Assembly: GCA_020725555.1 (NCBI GenBank)
Contig: DYEU01000027.1
Coordinates: 1 to 61,424, forward strand
Length of the DNA stretch: 61,424 nt
Direction: 5' to 3'
Origin: Desulfatibacillum sp.
GTDB lineage: Bacteria > Desulfobacterota > Desulfobacteria > Desulfobacterales > SpSt-501
Shown: positions 4,158 to 45,319 of the stretch, piece after piece
Position numbering within the stretch: position 1 is the stretch's first letter
How the letters are laid out: the number at the start of each line of letters is the position of its first letter
Made by a program: the position numbers and the translations under genes
Notes under the pieces: generated by a model
Told to the model about the DNA's origin: nothing
Databases searched by the model: none
What the model saw: only the letters and a program-made list of their open reading frames with translations

Positions 4158-4940
4158 TCAAGCGGGGCGGCGGACGCCCGGCGCCCCCCGGAGGGCGAGC
4201 AGCCGCTCGATGCGCTCGAGGTCCGCGGGGGAGTTGATCCCGAGCACCTCCTCGGGATCCCCCCCGCGGAAGACGCCCACGCGGAAGCCGCCCTCGACGC
4301 CGATCCGCACGACCTCGGTGAGGTAATACTCGCCCTGGGCGTTGTCGCGGGAAAGGCGCGGCAAGGCGGTCTCCAGGAAGGGCTTGCGGAGGCAATAGAT
4401 GCCGCTGTTCACCGTGCGCACGGCGCGCTGGACGGAATCGGCGTCGGCCTCCTCGACGATGGCCCGGAGCCCCCCGGCGGCGTCGAAGATCAGCCGGCCG
4501 TAGCCCGCGGGCTGCTCGAGGTCGACGGCGAGAACCGTGACATCGCGCTCCGCCCGCCGGTGTTCCTCGGCCAGGGCCGAAAGCGTCCCCGGCGCGATCA
4601 AGGGGACATCGCCGCAGAGGACGAGGAGCGACTCGCACGCCGCGGGCACCACGGGCAAGGCGCAGCGGACGGCGTGCCCGGTCCCGAGGGGCTCCTCCTG
4701 GAGGGCGAAGCGCACCGGGGCGACCCGGGAGACGACCCGCCGCACCTCCTCGGCCTGGTGGCCGACGACCACGACCACGGCGTCGCCGGATACGGCCACG
4801 GCGGCCTCGACGACATACTGCACCATGGGCTTTCCCCGCACGGCATGCAAGACCTTGGCCAGCGGGGATTTCATGCGCTTGCCGCGGCCTGCGGCCAGGA
4901 TGATCGCACCCACGGTGCCCGGCACGATGCCGATGTCCAC
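4158..4940 (-). CDS. GlmU-like UDP-sugar uridylyltransferase without acetyltransferase domain
   Basis: About 260 residues with the nucleotidyltransferase signature AIILAAGRGKRMKSPLAKVLH, plus QEEPLGTGHAV, LCGDVPLI and DNAQGEYYLTEVV. These match the N-terminal pyrophosphorylase half of GlmU, which makes UDP-GlcNAc from GlcNAc-1-P and UTP. Full GlmU is about 450-475 residues with a left-handed beta-helix acetyltransferase domain. Here the frame stops right after the linker helix (ADLERIERLLAL) and nothing downstream resembles the missing half. The GTG at 4940 is uncertain, as no clear ribosome site is seen. The gene lies downstream of atpC, the usual deltaproteobacterial place for glmU. Confidence 0.8.
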   Translation of the reverse strand: MDIGIVPGTVGAIILAAGRGKRMKSPLAKVLHAVRGKPMVQYVVEAAVAVSGDAVVVVVGHQAEEVRRVVSRVAPVRFALQEEPLGTGHAVRCALPVVPAACESLLVLCGDVPLIAPGTLSALAEEHRRAERDVTVLAVDLEQPAGYGRLIFDAAGGLRAIVEEADADSVQRAVRTVNSGIYCLRKPFLETALPRLSRDNAQGEYYLTEVVRIGVEGGFRVGVFRGGDPEEVLGINSPADLERIERLLALRGAPGVRRPA

Positions 4941-5056
4941 TCTCGTTTCGCCCGCCGTCAAACAAAACGGAGGGTTCACCCCAACGGGCGCCCTCCGCAG
5001 GAAAAGGTTTGCGCTCCGGCCCCGCCCCGGCGGGCGCGCCGCCGGGGAAGGGGCGG

Positions 5057-5479
5057 TTACTGCGGCCGGCTTTTCTCGGCGATCTTCAGCCGCACCAGGG
5101 CGCGCTGCAACGCCGCCTGGGCCCGGGCGAAATCGACCGCCTCGCGGCTTCGCTGCTCGGCCAGCCGTTTCTGCGCCCGCTCGAGCGCCGCGCGGGCGCG
5201 CTCGACATCGATGTCGCGGCGCCGCTCGGCGGACTCGGCGAGCACGGTCACCCGGTCGGGGAGCGCCTCGGCGAAGCCGCCGCTCACGAACACGAAGTGC
5301 TCGCCCCCCTGCGGGTCGAGGTAGCGCACGGCGCCGGTCTGCAGCGCGGTGAGAAACGGCGTGTGCCCGATCAGGACACCGAATTCCCCGAGCGTTCCCG
5401 GGGCGGTGACGATCTGTGCTTCCTCGCTCACGACCACCCGCTCCGGGGTGACGATTTCCAGCTTGATCGTTCCGGCCAT
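5057..5479 (-). CDS. atpC: ATP synthase epsilon subunit
   Basis: A 140-residue F1 central-stalk subunit. The N-terminal beta-sandwich begins MAGTIKLEIVTPERVVVSEE, includes LGEFGVLIGHTPFLTAL, and is followed by the C-terminal two-helix hairpin (RDIDVERARAALERAQKRL). It couples rotation and can inhibit ATP hydrolysis. It is the last gene of the atp cluster, 15 bp after atpD. Confidence 0.96.
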   Translation of the reverse strand: MAGTIKLEIVTPERVVVSEEAQIVTAPGTLGEFGVLIGHTPFLTALQTGAVRYLDPQGGEHFVFVSGGFAEALPDRVTVLAESAERRRDIDVERARAALERAQKRLAEQRSREAVDFARAQAALQRALVRLKIAEKSRPQ

Positions 5480-38817: not shown

Positions 38818-40745
38818 GCATGGCCTTTTACATCACGACCCCCATCTACTACGTGAACGCCCGGCCGCACCTCGGCCACGCCTACACGACCCTCGTCGCC
38901 GACGCGGCCAGCCGCTTTCAGCGCATGCGCGGGGAGAGGGTCTTTTTCCTGACCGGCACCGACGAGCACGGCGACAAGATCGTGCGCGCGGCCCGCAAGG
39001 AGGGCCTCAGCCCCCGGGAGTACGTCGACCGCGTCAGCCGCCTCTTCCGCGAGCTCTGGCCGGAGCTCGCCATCGCCCCCGACCGCTTCATCCGCACCAC
39101 CGACCCCGGGCACCAGGCCGTCGTCGCCCGCGTCCTCAGCCGGATCCACGAGGCGGGCGACATCTACTTCAGCGAATACGAGGGGCTCTATTGCTTCGGC
39201 TGCGAGCGCTTCTACACCGAGCGCGAGCTCGTCGAGGGCCGATGCCCGGACCACCGGGTCGCCCCCGAGCGGATCCGCGAGGCGAACTATTTCTTCCGCA
39301 TGAGCCGCTACCAGGACTGGCTCGTCGACCACATCCGGCGGCACCCCGATTTCATCCGCCCCGAGCGCTACCGCAACGAGGTCCTGGCCTTCCTGCGCGA
39401 GCCGCTCGAGGACCTGTGCATCTCGCGGCCGCGCTCGCGCCTCGACTGGGGAATCCCGCTGCCCTTCGACGAGCGCTACGTGACCTACGTCTGGTTCGAT
39501 GCGCTGCTCAACTACGTCTCGGCCCTGGGCTGGCCGGAGGGCGAGCTCTTCGCCGCCTTCTGGCCGGCCGCCCGCCACCTGATCGCCAAGGACATCCTCA
39601 AGCCCCACGCCATCTACTGGCCCTGCATGCTGCGCGCGGCCGGGATCCCCCTCTTCCGGCACCTCCACGTGCACGGCTACTGGAAGGTGGAGGAGGGCAA
39701 GATGTCGAAGAGCCTGGGCAACGTGGTCGAACCGCTCGCCCTCAAGGACCGCTACGGCCTGGACGCCTTCCGCTATTTTCTCCTGCGCGAGATGGCCTTC
39801 GGCGTCGACGCCTCCTTCAGCGAGGAGGCCCTCGTCCAGCGCCTGAACGCGGACCTCGCCAACGATCTCGGCAACCTCTTCTCCCGTGTGCTCACCATGG
39901 CCTGGAAGTATATGGACGGGGTCGTCCCCGCCGTCGACCCCGAGACGGCGCGGCAGTACGGGCTGGGGCTCGGGCCCGAGGCCGTGCGCACGGTCCTCGA
40001 GTACGAGCGCGCCATGGAGGCCTTCGAATTCCACCGCGCGCTCGCCGCCGTCTGGGAATTCGTCGGCCGCCTGAACAAGGCGGTGGACCTGAGCGCACCC
40101 TGGGAGCTCGCCAAGAAGAAGAGCACCCGGCCGCAGCTCGAGGCGGTGCTGGCGAGCCTGCTCAAGGGGATGCGGCTCGTCGCGGGGCTGCTCCACCCGG
40201 TGATGCCGCACACGTCGGCCCGCATGCAGGCCCAGCTCGGTCTGGAGGCGGATCCCCGGTTTACGAACCTGGAAGACATGAAATTGTGGCAACCTTTTCC
40301 CGCCGGGACGAGGCTCGGCAAGGCGAGCGCCCTCTTTCCCCGCGTCGAGCCGGCCACGGCGGAGCCCGGCCCGGAGGCCGCGGCGCCGGGGGCGGCCGCC
40401 GCCCCGGAGACACCGACCCGCAAGCCCGAGGTGGGCATCGAGGAGTTTCTCAAGCTCGATCTGCGCGCGGCCACCGTGCTCGCCGCCGAGCCGCTCCCCA
40501 AAGCGAAAAAGCTCCTCAAGCTCGAGATCGACTGCGGCGAGCGGCGCACCATCGTCGCCGGGATCGCCGAGCACTACCGGCCCGAGGAGCTGGTCGGCCG
40601 CCAGGTCATCGTCATCGCCAACCTCAAGCCCGCGAAACTGATGGGGGTCGTCTCCCAGGGGATGCTCCTTGCGGCCGGCGGCGAAGCGGGGCCCGTCCTC
40701 GTCGCCCCCGTCAAACCGGTGCCTCCGGGAAGCGCTTTGAAGTAA
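38814..40745 (+). CDS. metG: methionyl-tRNA synthetase
   Basis: 643 residues. The HIGH-type motif is HLGH in NARPHLGHAYTT, the zinc-knuckle region is CFGCERFYTERELVEGRCPDH, EGKMSKSLGN is intact, an anticodon-binding helical domain follows, and the C-terminal EMAPII-like tRNA-binding domain is FLKLDLRAATVLAAEPLPKAKK...VVSQGMLLAA. An Ala/Pro linker (about 510-535) joins them. The ATG at 38814 overlaps the ricT stop (ATGA) and follows GGAGAGG. Confidence 0.97.
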   Translation: MSMAFYITTPIYYVNARPHLGHAYTTLVADAASRFQRMRGERVFFLTGTDEHGDKIVRAARKEGLSPREYVDRVSRLFRELWPELAIAPDRFIRTTDPGHQAVVARVLSRIHEAGDIYFSEYEGLYCFGCERFYTERELVEGRCPDHRVAPERIREANYFFRMSRYQDWLVDHIRRHPDFIRPERYRNEVLAFLREPLEDLCISRPRSRLDWGIPLPFDERYVTYVWFDALLNYVSALGWPEGELFAAFWPAARHLIAKDILKPHAIYWPCMLRAAGIPLFRHLHVHGYWKVEEGKMSKSLGNVVEPLALKDRYGLDAFRYFLLREMAFGVDASFSEEALVQRLNADLANDLGNLFSRVLTMAWKYMDGVVPAVDPETARQYGLGLGPEAVRTVLEYERAMEAFEFHRALAAVWEFVGRLNKAVDLSAPWELAKKKSTRPQLEAVLASLLKGMRLVAGLLHPVMPHTSARMQAQLGLEADPRFTNLEDMKLWQPFPAGTRLGKASALFPRVEPATAEPGPEAAAPGAAAAPETPTRKPEVGIEEFLKLDLRAATVLAAEPLPKAKKLLKLEIDCGERRTIVAGIAEHYRPEELVGRQVIVIANLKPAKLMGVVSQGMLLAAGGEAGPVLVAPVKPVPPGSALK

Positions 40746-40861
40746 ACGGCACGGTTTGTGCTTTCCGGAGATGTTCGCTACGCTTTCCGGAATTGGGTTC
40801 GATCCTTGCACCGGCGGGGGTTCGCGAACGGAGCGCCCGCCGGTCCCCGTTTGAGGTGACC

Positions 40862-43800
40862 ATGCCCCGCCGTCGTCTCCTTCGCACCGCGGCCGCCGCC
40901 CTGAAAGGGCGCCTTTGCGGCTTCGCCCGCCTCCTGCGGGCGCCCGTCTTTTTCGGTCGCCACCCCGCCTCCGTGCCCCCCGGCGCGATCGTCCTCTTTC
41001 CGCTGGCGCCAAACCGCCTCGGCTGCGGCATCGCGGGCATCGTCGCCTTCCGGCGCGCCGCCGCGCCGGAGCGGCCCGACTGGGGTCGGATCGGGGAGCT
41101 CGCCGACGCCGTGCTCGCCCGCGAGGCACGGGGCCCCGCCCCGGATCCCCCTATCGGCGAGGAGGGGATCGCGGCCCTTTCCCGCGAGGTCCTGCGGCTC
41201 AGGCGCAGGTCCGCGTTTCTCACGCTCTTTTCGGATCCTGCGGCTCGGGACCGGGCGCGCGATCTCGCCTCCCGGATCGGGGAGGCGGCGGAGCGCGAGG
41301 CCCATCTCTTCCGCGAGCACGCCGGCCGCCTCCCCGGCGCCGAGGCCGAGCGGGCCTCCGAGCGGATCGAGCGGCTCAGAGACATCGCCTGGTGGCTTAA
41401 GGCCGAGATGCTGAACAACATCGGGCGCGTCGAGGCCCTCGCGGCCTCCTTTCCGGAGCCGCCGCCCGCCGAGGGGCTGCTTGCGCTCCGGGACGTGAAC
41501 GCCGTCCTGAACAGCATCGACCGGATGGAGGTGCGCGGCCGCGACTCGGCCGGGGTCTCGCTCCTTTTCAGCCTCTCCGGCGCCGAGTTCGGCCGCTTCG
41601 AGGAGGAGCTCCGCCGCCGCCGCCTCGAAGCCCAGTTCGCCGCCCGGTCCGGCCGCGAGCCCCTCCTCCACGGCGGCATCCGCCTGCACCGCGCGGGCGA
41701 CCAAGTCGCCGCGGCCCTCACCTACAAGGTCGCCCGCGAGATCGGCAGCCTGGGCGACAACATCGATTTCCTGCGCCGGGAAATCGCCTCCGACCGCGTG
41801 CTGCACGCGCTGCTTGCCCGGCCGGCCCGCTTTTTCACCGTGAACGCGCACACGCGCTGGGCCTCGGTCGGGGCGATCACCGAGGCGAACTGCCACCCCG
41901 TCGACAACGGCACCGCGGCCGGGCGGCGGGACGCGGGCTGCGCCGTCATCCACGCCTGCCTGAACGGCGACATCGACAACTTCGAGGAGTTGAAGGCCCT
42001 TCTCGAGGCGGAGGGCGTTAGGATCCCCCCCGAGGTCACGACCGACACCAAGATCATCCCCCTCTGGATCGAGCGCCACCTGCGCGGCGGCGTGAGCGTC
42101 GAGGAGGCGTTCCGCCGCGCGGTGAACGATTTTCGCGGCTCCCACGCCATCGCCGTGCACACGAGCCTCGCCCCGGGCAAGCTCTTTCTCGCCCAGCGCG
42201 GAAGCGGCCAGGCGATGTTCGTCGGGATCGCCCCCGACCATTACATGCCCACCTCCGAGGTCTACGGCTTCATCGAGGAGACCAGCGACTACATCCGTCT
42301 CGAGGGGGAAAAGGCCCACCCCGGCGCCCACGGCCCCGTCCAGGGCGAAATCGCCGTCCTCGACCAGGAGGCGGCGGGCGGCGCCCGGGGGATCCGCCTC
42401 CTGCGCTACGACGGGACCCCGGTCCCGCTCGAAGACCGGCGCCTGCTTCGCTCGCAGCTCACCTCGCGCGACATCGACCGGCAGGGCTACCCCCACTACT
42501 TCCTCAAGGAGATCTCCGAGTCGCCGCTCTCCGTGGAGCGCACGCTCCAGAACCGCTGGAAGGTCGCCGACCCCGAAACCGGCCGCCTCGAGGTCGCCCT
42601 CGACGAGCGCGCCGTCCCCGAGGCGCTCCGCCGCCGCCTCGCGGCGGGCGAAATCCGCCGCGTCTTCTTCATCGGCCAGGGGACGGCCGGGGTCGCCGCG
42701 CAGGTCGCCGCGAACCTGCTCGGCCATTACCTCCAGGACCCGGCGGTCGCGGTCCAGGCGATGAAGGCCTCGGAGCTGAGCGGGTTGGCGGTCGGGGCCG
42801 CCGGGGGGCGGCAGGGGCTCGCCGACGCCCTGGTGGTCGCGATCAGCCAGTCCGGCACCACGACCGACACGAACCGCGCCGTGGACCTCGCCCGCGAGCG
42901 GGGGGCGGCCACGATCGCGATCGTCAACCGCCGCGAGTCCGACCTCACCTTCAAGACCCAGGGCGTTCTCTACACGAGCAGCGGCCGCGACATCGAGATG
43001 TCGGTCGCCTCGACCAAGGCCTTCTACGCGCAGATCGTGGCCGGCGCGCTTCTCGGGCTCTTCCTCGCCCGGCTGACCGGCCGCCGCGACGGCCGCTTCG
43101 TCTCCGAAGAGCTCGAGCGGCTGCGCGCGCTGCCGGGCCGGATGCGCCGGGTGCTCGCCCAAGAAGAGCGGATCCGGCGGTCCGCGGCGCGGCTCGCCGC
43201 GGGCAAGACCTACTGGGCGGTCGTCGGCAGCGGCCCCAACAAGGCCTCGGCCGACGAGATCCGCATCAAGTTGAGCGAGCTCTGCTACAAGACGATCTCC
43301 TCGGACTACGTCGAGGACAAAAAGCACATCGACCTCTCCTCGGAGCCGCTGATCCTCGTCTGCGCCGCGGGCGCGCACCCCGCGGTGCTGGGCGACCTCG
43401 TCAAGGACACGGCCATCTTCCGCGCCCACCGAGCGACCCCGGTCGTCATCTGCGACGAGGGCGAGGAGCGCTTTGCGCCCTTCGCCGAGGACGTGATCCC
43501 GGTGCCCGCGGTCGAGGAGCACCTCGCCCCGGTGTTGAACACGCTGGCCGGCCACCTGTGGGGGTATCACGCGGCGCTGGCGATCCACGAGGGCTCGCGC
43601 TTCCTCTTCCGCTTCCAGGAAGAGCTCCTCGCCGCGATCGCCGCCGCCCGGGAGGCGGGCCGGGACGTCAACGAGCTCGTCCTCGACCGCGCCTTCCGCG
43701 AGAAGGCCGCCGCCTTCTACCGCGAGTTCCGCGAGCGCCGCGCGCGGCGCGAGCTGCCGCTCGCGGTCGGCTACGACGCGGCGACCGACATCACGCTGCT

Positions 43801-44590
43801 GCTGAAGTACCTGACGGGCCGGCTGCCGATCGCGGACTTCGAGATCGACTTCGGCGAGCAGGGGACGGCCGCGAACCTGCTCCGGCTGCTCCTCGAGCGG
43901 CTCGCCGAGGCGGTGGGACTGCTCGCGCGGCCCGTGGACGCGATCAAGCACCAGGCGAAGACCGTGACCGTGGGGACGAGCCGCCTCGAGGAGGCCCCGC
44001 AGGGCCTGCTCTTCGAGGCCCTCGCCCAGGAGGGGATCGCGCCCTCCCGGCTGACCCCGGCGAACGTGATCGTCCTCAGGAACCTCCAGGGGGTCGTGGC
44101 GGGCATCGAGGGCTCGATCCTCTACCGCATCGAGGGGCTGAACCTCCTCGGCGAACCCGACGAGAAGACGAGGATCGCCGTCGAGGTGAAGCGGGGGGCG
44201 ACGGCGGCGATCCCCTCGCGCGTCGAATCCGATTCCGAGCTCAAGGGCACCAAGCGCATCATCGTCCGCCAGGGGAACGTCTACATCGGCAAGGGCCGCA
44301 AGGACGACCGCAGCATCCTCGTGATCCCGGTCCTCGGGGCGGAGCCCGGCGCCGCCGGCCGCATCGAGCGGCTGCTGTTGCTCCACATCCGCTTCCGGGA
44401 GGAGGTCCCGCTCGAGCTCAAAATCCGCGCCCTGGGCGGCAAGTTCGAGAACATCAAGAACATCGTCCAGGAGAACTCGGTCCCCTGGAAGGACGAGCAC
44501 CTCGAGCTGTTGCCGATCGAGGAGCTCTTCGGCCGCTCGGCGGAGAAGATCGCCGAGGCGATCGTCGCCCGGCTCGCGCCGCGGAGCTGA
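40862..44590 (+). CDS. giant GlmS-like glutamine amidotransferase / double-SIS protein
   Basis: 1,242 residues, about twice the length of GlmS. The glutaminase Cys is at 55 (LGCGIAGIVAF), after a basic/hydrophobic 54-residue extension. Further glutaminase motifs are RGRDSAG (225-231), HTRWAS (330-335), CLNGDIDN (366-373) and TTDTK (393-397), with helical insertions between them. GYPHYFLKEISESPLSVERT leads into SIS domain 1 (ISQSGTTTDT at 661-670, SVASTKAF at 714-721), then SIS domain 2 (about 760-900). The last 340 residues match no domain I know. The reaction is probably ammonia transfer to a sugar phosphate. The ATG at 40862 has GAGG upstream. Confidence 0.85.
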   Translation: MPRRRLLRTAAAALKGRLCGFARLLRAPVFFGRHPASVPPGAIVLFPLAPNRLGCGIAGIVAFRRAAAPERPDWGRIGELADAVLAREARGPAPDPPIGEEGIAALSREVLRLRRRSAFLTLFSDPAARDRARDLASRIGEAAEREAHLFREHAGRLPGAEAERASERIERLRDIAWWLKAEMLNNIGRVEALAASFPEPPPAEGLLALRDVNAVLNSIDRMEVRGRDSAGVSLLFSLSGAEFGRFEEELRRRRLEAQFAARSGREPLLHGGIRLHRAGDQVAAALTYKVAREIGSLGDNIDFLRREIASDRVLHALLARPARFFTVNAHTRWASVGAITEANCHPVDNGTAAGRRDAGCAVIHACLNGDIDNFEELKALLEAEGVRIPPEVTTDTKIIPLWIERHLRGGVSVEEAFRRAVNDFRGSHAIAVHTSLAPGKLFLAQRGSGQAMFVGIAPDHYMPTSEVYGFIEETSDYIRLEGEKAHPGAHGPVQGEIAVLDQEAAGGARGIRLLRYDGTPVPLEDRRLLRSQLTSRDIDRQGYPHYFLKEISESPLSVERTLQNRWKVADPETGRLEVALDERAVPEALRRRLAAGEIRRVFFIGQGTAGVAAQVAANLLGHYLQDPAVAVQAMKASELSGLAVGAAGGRQGLADALVVAISQSGTTTDTNRAVDLARERGAATIAIVNRRESDLTFKTQGVLYTSSGRDIEMSVASTKAFYAQIVAGALLGLFLARLTGRRDGRFVSEELERLRALPGRMRRVLAQEERIRRSAARLAAGKTYWAVVGSGPNKASADEIRIKLSELCYKTISSDYVEDKKHIDLSSEPLILVCAAGAHPAVLGDLVKDTAIFRAHRATPVVICDEGEERFAPFAEDVIPVPAVEEHLAPVLNTLAGHLWGYHAALAIHEGSRFLFRFQEELLAAIAAAREAGRDVNELVLDRAFREKAAAFYREFRERRARRELPLAVGYDAATDITLLLKYLTGRLPIADFEIDFGEQGTAANLLRLLLERLAEAVGLLARPVDAIKHQAKTVTVGTSRLEEAPQGLLFEALAQEGIAPSRLTPANVIVLRNLQGVVAGIEGSILYRIEGLNLLGEPDEKTRIAVEVKRGATAAIPSRVESDSELKGTKRIIVRQGNVYIGKGRKDDRSILVIPVLGAEPGAAGRIERLLLLHIRFREEVPLELKIRALGGKFENIKNIVQENSVPWKDEHLELLPIEELFGRSAEKIAEAIVARLAPRS

Positions 44591-44605
44591 GGCGGCTTCC
44601 GCCTC
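44589..44605 (+). terminator. weak terminator-like hairpin after the GlmS-like gene
   Basis: GAGGCGG-CTT-CCGCCTC overlaps the stop codon and is followed by a pyrimidine run (CCCTCTTTCCCTCCC) rather than a T-tract, so it is at best a weak terminator. Confidence 0.35.
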
Positions 44606-44610
44606 CCCTC

Positions 44611-44640
44611 TTTCCCTCCCGCCCCGATCCGTGCTATCAT
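44611..44640 (+). promoter_or_regulatory. extended -10 promoter for the response regulator
   Basis: TTTCCC (44611-44616), an 18-bp gap, then GTGCTATCAT with TGC before TATCAT (44635-44640), an extended -10. The sat-cysC promoter has the same words at the same spacing. Confidence 0.65.
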
Positions 44641-44722
44641 AGGGGATCAAACCGGTCGCGGCCCCAGCCGGCCGCGGCCGATGATCCCTTTTCGCGTTCC
44701 TTGCCCCCCGGAGGCGAGCCCC

Positions 44723-45319
44723 ATGCCGCAGAACCCAGCGCCGGCCGTCACCTACGATCTCCTCCTCGTCGACGACGACCCCTTCATCCTCGAGGGGATC
44801 GGCGAAGACCTGGAACAGCGCGGCTACCGCGTGACCCGGGTGAACAGCGGGGAAAAGGCCCTCGAGCTCCTCGAGCGCCAGTCCTTCGATCTGGTGATCA
44901 CCGACCTCGTCATGGAGCACATCGACGGGATCCAGGTGCTCAAAAAAAGCAAGGAAAAAAACGCGACCACGATGGTCATCCTGCTCACGGGGTTCGGCGA
45001 CATGCTCTCGGCGATCGAGGCCCTGCGCAACCAGGCCGACGACTACATGCTCAAGCCCTGCGAATCCTCCGAGATCCAGTTCCGCGTGGAGCGCTGCCTC
45101 GAGAAGCTCGAGCTCACGCGCAAGATCCACCTCTACCAGAAGATCCTCCCCATGTGCTGCGTCTGCAAGAAGATCCGGGACGACACGGGCAAGGTCCCCG
45201 GCCAGGGCCCCTGGGTCCCCGTAGAACAGTTCATCCACCAGCGCGCGAAGCTCGACATCACCTCGAGCTACTGCCCCGACTGCGCGCAGAAAACCCTCGA
45301 GCAGATCCTCAAGAAATAG
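44723..45319 (+). CDS. response regulator with C-terminal four-Cys domain
   Basis: 198 residues. The receiver domain (about 9-125) has LLVDDDPF, phospho-acceptor Asp in LVITDLVME, and the Lys in MLKPCESSE. A helical linker leads to a C-terminal module MCCVCKKIRDDTGK...SYCPDCAQK, whose CxxC pairs look like a small metal-binding fold that follows receiver or PAS domains in many deltaproteobacteria. There is no DNA-binding output. The ATG at 44723 has GGAGG 9 nt upstream. It is a single gene with no kinase beside it. Confidence 0.88.
   Translation: MPQNPAPAVTYDLLLVDDDPFILEGIGEDLEQRGYRVTRVNSGEKALELLERQSFDLVITDLVMEHIDGIQVLKKSKEKNATTMVILLTGFGDMLSAIEALRNQADDYMLKPCESSEIQFRVERCLEKLELTRKIHLYQKILPMCCVCKKIRDDTGKVPGQGPWVPVEQFIHQRAKLDITSSYCPDCAQKTLEQILKK

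Follow-up and report, generated by a model that had tools for sequence, protein, structure and literature searches.

How does an enzyme that works through an N-terminal cysteine function when that cysteine is encoded 54 residues into the chain? The question is raised by a long GlmS-type gene in a 61,424-nt stretch of a Desulfatibacillum sp. genome (contig DYEU01000027.1; the whole stretch is called the window below), an open reading frame (ORF) at 40862-44590 (+) with an ATG start that encodes 1,242 amino acids plus a stop. GlmS opens amino-sugar synthesis for the cell wall and lipopolysaccharide and is a textbook N-terminal Cys nucleophile enzyme. Our preferred answer, to which we give a probability of about 0.75, is that the product is the cell's glucosamine-6-phosphate synthase in enlarged form, made as a precursor whose extension is removed at the 54/55 bond to free Cys55. 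An earlier note on this DNA had described a 1,242-residue GlmS relative with a 54-residue extension before the Cys, and the ORF, Pfam and an alignment to E. coli GlmS bore this out, with the nucleophile at residue 55 rather than right after the initiator Met and so, as the note had pointed out, not exposed by Met removal. Its suggestion that the extension may be cut off as a propeptide, like those of PurF or glutamate synthase, gained strong comparative support, from which we infer the cleavage itself.

In the proposed mechanism, the chain would be made as a precursor carrying residues 1-54. A cut at the 54/55 bond, probably self-catalysed in the manner of PurF, would take off this extension and leave Cys55 as the N-terminal nucleophile. 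Cys55 would then hydrolyse glutamine, and the ammonia would pass to the SIS domains, which would aminate and isomerise fructose-6-phosphate with Glu806, His822 and Lys1033. Self-cleavage is probable by analogy with PurF/GPRAT, and glutaminase activity, synthase activity and ammonia transfer are probable from the residues described below. The features at the N-terminal end are as follows.

40862-44590 (+): long GlmS-type gene, 1,242 codons plus stop, from the ORF call and relatives
40862-40945 (+): first part of the extension, residues 1-28, basic, poorly conserved, predicted helix
40946-41023 (+): conserved pro-segment, residues 29-54, consensus about [VI][YF]xG[RK]xPxxVPxGSIVFFPxxxxxLx before Cys in 106 sequences
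41000-41002 (+): Pro47, position -8 from Cys55, Pro in 105/106
41024-41026 (+): Cys55, presumed N-terminal nucleophile equivalent to E. coli Cys1, 69/69 and by model alignment

The N-terminal extension

The extension was compared across 106 distinct proteins in which the catalytic Cys had been placed by profile. Pro stood at position -8 in 105 of them (the exception, L029, has Ala), Phe at -9 in 93, Gly at -23 in 92 and Tyr or Phe at -25 in 91, while -26 was Val, Ile or Leu in 104 and -2 was Leu in 80. The nonsynonymous rate (pN) was below the synonymous rate (pS) over residues 22-54 in all 13 hand-chosen pairs, the first 21 residues being little constrained; residues 1-27 of the window's extension carry a net charge of +8. 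Judged from these comparisons, the extension is translated and conserved, and the Pro at -8 may, as a guess, stabilise a turn that brings the bond up to Cys55.

We then classed 123 distinct long proteins by the pro-segment motif, ignoring residue -1. These were 145 sources minus 15 repeats of the same gene and seven without a placed Cys (L013, L042, L075, L106 and L112, in which the gene start is missing, L094, which starts just after the Cys, and L178). The motif was present in 106, none with Met at -1, and absent from 17, all of which have Met directly before the Cys. In 15 of these 17 genes (the exceptions being L068 and L167) an in-frame stop lies at most 22 codons upstream, too close for the 26-residue motif to fit. 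A tree of 104 proteins, 87 with and 17 without the extension, required five changes, at least four of them forced by well-supported branches; it was built by a quick method and drawn at the midpoint, and its "no extension" class was defined by Met at -1. For the tree and the residue sets used below, three near-copies were removed, L085, L048 and L063 were set aside, and eight loci were missed or truncated. Because four outgroup-like proteins (f77, f126) begin Met-Cys, the simplest history would be one gain and about four losses, the proposed losses being G361, G121 with G055, G075, and a clade of nine that includes Desulfonema magnum. Since such losses leave Met right before the Cys, which would become N-terminal upon Met removal, Cys55 very probably must be N-terminal too, and the extension is very probably a propeptide cut at 54/55. 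A precursor form that replaces GlmS, with Met-Cys wherever the extension is missing, amounts to a natural experiment on propeptide gain and loss.

Precedents exist in related amidotransferases. Glutamate synthase GltB is made with a propeptide, and the long form shares its glutaminase fold (1ofe, Z 19.2, root-mean-square deviation (rmsd) 3.9 over 267 residues); unlike GltB, the long form has SIS domains, and the rest of GltB was not seen in the Pfam scan. PurF (1ao0) shares the class II glutaminase fold (Z 22.0, rmsd 2.8 over 244 in the precursor model described below), and propeptide-type PurF, as in B. subtilis and Arabidopsis GPRAT2, likewise carries an N-terminal extension before the catalytic Cys, whereas the long form has SIS domains and no phosphoribosyltransferase domain in Pfam up to E 1. 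The GPRAT/PurF propeptide is cleaved autocatalytically, according to passages of PMC7056826. No paper on a GlmS propeptide or on this long form appeared among the papers listed in searches of an open-licence library, most subscription journals lying outside its coverage. A signal peptide or lipoprotein was also considered and rejected, with a lipobox in 0/62 extensions and 19-residue hydropathy above 1.6 in 2/62.

Among the alternatives, removal of the extension by another protease survives best, although we regard it as unlikely. The variable residue at -1 (Cys in 49/106) and the mostly hydrophobic -2, described above, could be a protease site; on the other side, the related class II enzyme GPRAT/PurF cleaves its own propeptide in the cited passages, and a Pro at fixed distance would suit an intramolecular turn, neither point being decisive. 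We consider it more doubtful still that the extension is kept, with Cys55 acting inside the chain or the enzyme using free ammonia only, and that it binds a membrane or partner. Its basic first part and an amphipathic tendency (42/47 extensions above the shuffle mean, mean z 1.4) fit such a role, but the helix of the window protein scores no more amphipathic than its shuffles (z -0.23), every protein lacking the motif (17/17) has Met precisely at -1, and the Cys and the glutaminase residues listed below are invariant.

Catalytic core, fold and replacement of ordinary GlmS

Downstream of Cys55, the following features align with E. coli GlmS.

41534-41554 (+): RGRDSAG (E. coli RGYDSAG), residue 225 onward, by alignment
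41849-41866 (+): HTRWAS, holding Arg73 and Trp74 of E. coli, residue 330 onward, by alignment
41963-41971 (+): NGD, holding Asn98 and Gly99 of E. coli, residue 368 onward, by alignment
42044-42046 (+): Asp395, equivalent to E. coli Asp123, by alignment and in 69 long proteins
42479-43585 (+): isomerase region, two SIS domains, residues about 540-908, from Pfam and the model, with Glu806 = Glu488 and His822 = His504
43931-43975 (+): displaced C-tail, residues 1024-1038, with Lys1033 = E. coli Lys603, Ala-Lys in 69/69

Relative to E. coli GlmS, the protein consists of the extension (1-54), Cys55 followed directly by GIAGI, an insert of about 146 residues, RGRDSAG, an insert of about 50, the remaining glutaminase, two SIS domains to about residue 908, an insert of about 115, an E. 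coli-type C-tail and then about 204 residues. GATase_6 and SIS both scored above cut-offs in a Pfam scan of the 1,242-residue protein. The glutaminase motifs were all present, as the note had said, at residues 55 (C), 225, 330, 368 and 395 (D), but they span about 340 rather than its roughly 400 residues, and within them Thr76 has become Ser and His77 mostly Val. Its helical insertions in the glutaminase were found as described, at about 66-211 and 236-285 and mostly helical in the models.

Conservation was assessed in 69 long proteins, the window's and 68 from public genomes. On the glutaminase side, the equivalents of Cys1, Arg26, Asp29, Arg73, Trp74, Asn98, Gly99 and Asp123 were invariant (69/69); Arg73 and Trp74 we take to bind glutamine, and Asn98 and Gly99 presumably form the oxyanion hole. 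On the isomerase side, the equivalents of Gln348, Ser349, Thr352, Lys403, Glu481, Lys485, Glu488, His504, Ala602 and Lys603 were likewise invariant, and the Ser347 position held Ser in 60 proteins and Thr in the other 9. PMC9272926 describes the catalytic roles in GlmS of Cys1, Glu488, His504 and Lys603.

Predicted structures agreed with this assignment. A model of residues 55-1242 built from 68 sequences (mean predicted local distance difference test (pLDDT) 83.9, predicted template modelling score (pTM) 0.76) matched E. coli GlmS 2j6h with Z 37.2 and rmsd 4.9, aligning 579/608 residues, and the GFPT1 isomerase domain 2v4m with Z 37.7 and rmsd 2.5 over 334, the Z values of these top matches being tied. 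Like canonical GlmS/GFAT (PDB 2j6h, 3ooj, 1xff; human GFAT-1), the long form therefore has an N-terminal nucleophile (Ntn) glutaminase, two SIS domains and the catalytic residues, as seen in the comparison of the model with 2j6h and in Pfam, and the fold is shared over nearly the whole E. coli length; unlike them, it is twice as long, with the extension, two glutaminase inserts, an insert before the C-tail and a C-terminal domain. In a precursor model of residues 1-566 (32 sequences, mean pLDDT 82.9, pTM 0.82), the extension formed a helix at 2-26 and short strands at 29-31 and 43-45, and the alignment with 3ooj (Z 29.0, rmsd 1.9 over 239) began with Cys55 at residue 1. In a viral structure library, the best matches were glucosamine synthases and other amidotransferases.

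The genomic distribution indicated that the long form stands in for ordinary GlmS. The note had proposed looking for a normal-length glmS elsewhere in the genome (completeness 100, 35 contigs), and the search returned none: no match to the glmS model was above cut-off, the best being the long gene itself (233.5 vs 418 bits), and a second match, to the glutaminase part only (124 bits), lay in a 569-codon frame that appears PurF-like. In a close sample of 96 genomes (this one and 95 relatives), the query matched at E <= 0.001 in 94, of which 91 held a long-type gene or part of one, some as fragments. Ordinary GlmS was present in three (G011, G069, G090), all without a whole long form, and both forms occurred together in 0/96; the chance that the three would fall among the five without the long form is 10/142,880, or ~7e-5, ignoring kinship. 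G090 retains a remnant of the long gene (L179 3723-4025 (-), a 100-codon frame with the extension plus CGLAGIVS), which adjoins an Fe-alcohol-dehydrogenase gene, and a gene of the same kind precedes the long-gene start in G035.

In a class sample of 147 genomes that overlaps the 96, the best match was long-type in 140 and ordinary GlmS in two (G090, G149). Across the phylum sample, 273/297 genomes had a match; among the matches listed, long forms occurred in at least 26 genomes of nine families outside the window's order, the others being mostly frames of about 610-650 codons. None of the 319 plasmid records matched covered 80% of the query, and none of 32 stretches of viral contigs that fitted a pattern was a relative. 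By these comparisons, the long form is an enlarged GlmS typical of the window's order and clade-wide, and a clade related to sulfate reducers appears to use a double-length GlmS as its amino-sugar source. Two genomes, G071 and G068, carry two long glmS-type genes each, the second one in G071 sitting in a frame of 968 codons with 54% identity to the query.

Counter-evidence and identity of the product

Several observations weigh against a propeptide-bearing GlmS as the cell's enzyme. The residue at -1 of the supposed cleavage site is variable, and residues 46-54 fall below pLDDT 50 in the precursor model, which leaves the scissile bond without a structural view. In all 69 long proteins, E. coli residues are replaced on the glutaminase side (Tyr28 by Arg, Thr76 by Ser, Glu125 by Lys, and His77, by Val in 65) and in the isomerase part (Ser303 by Ala and Gly398 by Ser; Tyr304 is also replaced throughout, by Gly). 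The NCBIfam glmS model TIGR01135 matched residues 319-907 with 240.1 bits against a cut-off of 418, so the protein is filed as a GlmS-type variant and not as a TIGR01135 member; its variant form also accounts for the curated model passing over the gene in these genomes. Neither form was found in 2/96 genomes of the close sample (G026, G046) or, by the glmS model only, in 5/147 of the class sample. Finally, when the 26 genomes outside the order that bear the long form were searched again with the glmS model, one of them, G363, proved to have an ordinary GlmS as well; on the tree its long copy groups with the proteins of the window's order, which may point to transfer or contamination.

The note had also raised a product other than glucosamine-6-phosphate. 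A transaminase-isomerase acting on another sugar phosphate, perhaps for neighbouring envelope-sugar genes in relatives, seems quite improbable to us. The upstream order metG, PBP-like, DegT-type aminotransferase, Fe-alcohol dehydrogenase, long glmS in 17/46 loci (L037-L116) speaks for it, the 46 being those with >4 kb upstream; metG was named by eye and the other three are superfamily placements, all below curated cut-offs. The aminotransferase and dehydrogenase pair resembles KdnA and KdnB of Kdo8N synthesis, and a kdsB-like gene, named by eye, lay upstream in 5/46 loci. The isomerase residues that differ from E. coli (Ser303, Gly398) would fit as well. But the window's own locus has ricT and metG upstream and lacks the pair, two ordinary GlmS likewise have Ala in place of Ser303, and the long and ordinary forms are mutually exclusive across the 96 genomes. 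Moreover, the genome has no other GlmS, yet keeps glmM (above cut-off) and a GlmU uridylyltransferase domain. With the isomerase residues listed above invariant, a different product is unlikely and was not supported; from this genomic context, the product is probably glucosamine-6-phosphate. The locus thus very probably represents known GlmS chemistry in a clade-wide variant with a propeptide-bearing precursor.

A wrong start or assembly artefact, with the true start at or near Cys55, is scarcely credible even in a genome of 35 contigs, because codon -1 is GGC rather than the start codon that the note had named as refuting its view, no start codon stood at -1 among 62 extensions (among the 106, one CTG and zero ATG, GTG or TTG), residues 22-54 are under purifying selection, and family members occur in complete genomes, Desulfosarcina alkanivorans and D. 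widdelii among them.

Inserts, C-terminal domain and neighbouring genes

The remaining features lie between and beyond the conserved parts.

41057-41494 (+): insert 1 in the glutaminase domain, residues about 66-211, helical, from the E. coli alignment and model
41567-41716 (+): insert 2 in the glutaminase domain, residues about 236-285, from the E. coli GlmS alignment
43586-43930 (+): insert 3, residues about 909-1023, helical, between the second SIS domain and the C-tail, from alignment and model
43976-44587 (+): C-terminal domain, residues 1039-1242, without a family match by sequence, single copy in the genome

The chain continues for about 334 residues past the second SIS domain, close to the 340 of the note. 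Not all of them are extra, since E. coli PRNLAKSVTVE aligns with residues 1028-1038 (IKHQAKTVTVG in the window), and the Lys603 tail, to which the note had made no reference, is thus kept but displaced to Lys1033. The C-terminal domain of the window protein had no Pfam match, with stray matches in 1-2 of 31 members (best E 0.042), and its profile reached only E 0.28 (2ejb) and 1.8 against PDB sequences; the structural search barely covers this domain, so a known fold is still possible there. Insert 1 gave scattered single-member Pfam matches only (best E 0.0013). The inserts and C-terminal domain may have a structural or regulatory role, and the displaced tail and 200-residue domain raise questions on active-site closure and regulation. 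Tentatively, the Pro-containing pro-segment, glutaminase inserts and C-terminal domain might together form a clade-specific control module of a proenzyme GlmS, holding the glutaminase inactive until self-cleavage is set off by folding, assembly or an effector.

Minor observations concern the pathway and the locus. Five genomes (G026, G046, G104, G111, G179) had neither kind of glmS by the glmS model, which may reflect assembly gaps or another route. GlmU looks split: its uridylyltransferase half is a separate gene at 4161-5123 (-) of the window, and the other half is weakly matched by a 398-residue protein encoded next to glmM (L191 1468-2664). Among 40 genomes, this one included, none passed the GlmU cut-off and 30 had a strong match to the first half only; the cut-off was also missed by 5/14 control genomes. 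An Rfam scan of 40300-45300 gave no hit at gathering score. Directly downstream of the long glmS lies a response-regulator gene (44681-45319 (+)), and a similar gene follows in 6/75 loci, the window included.

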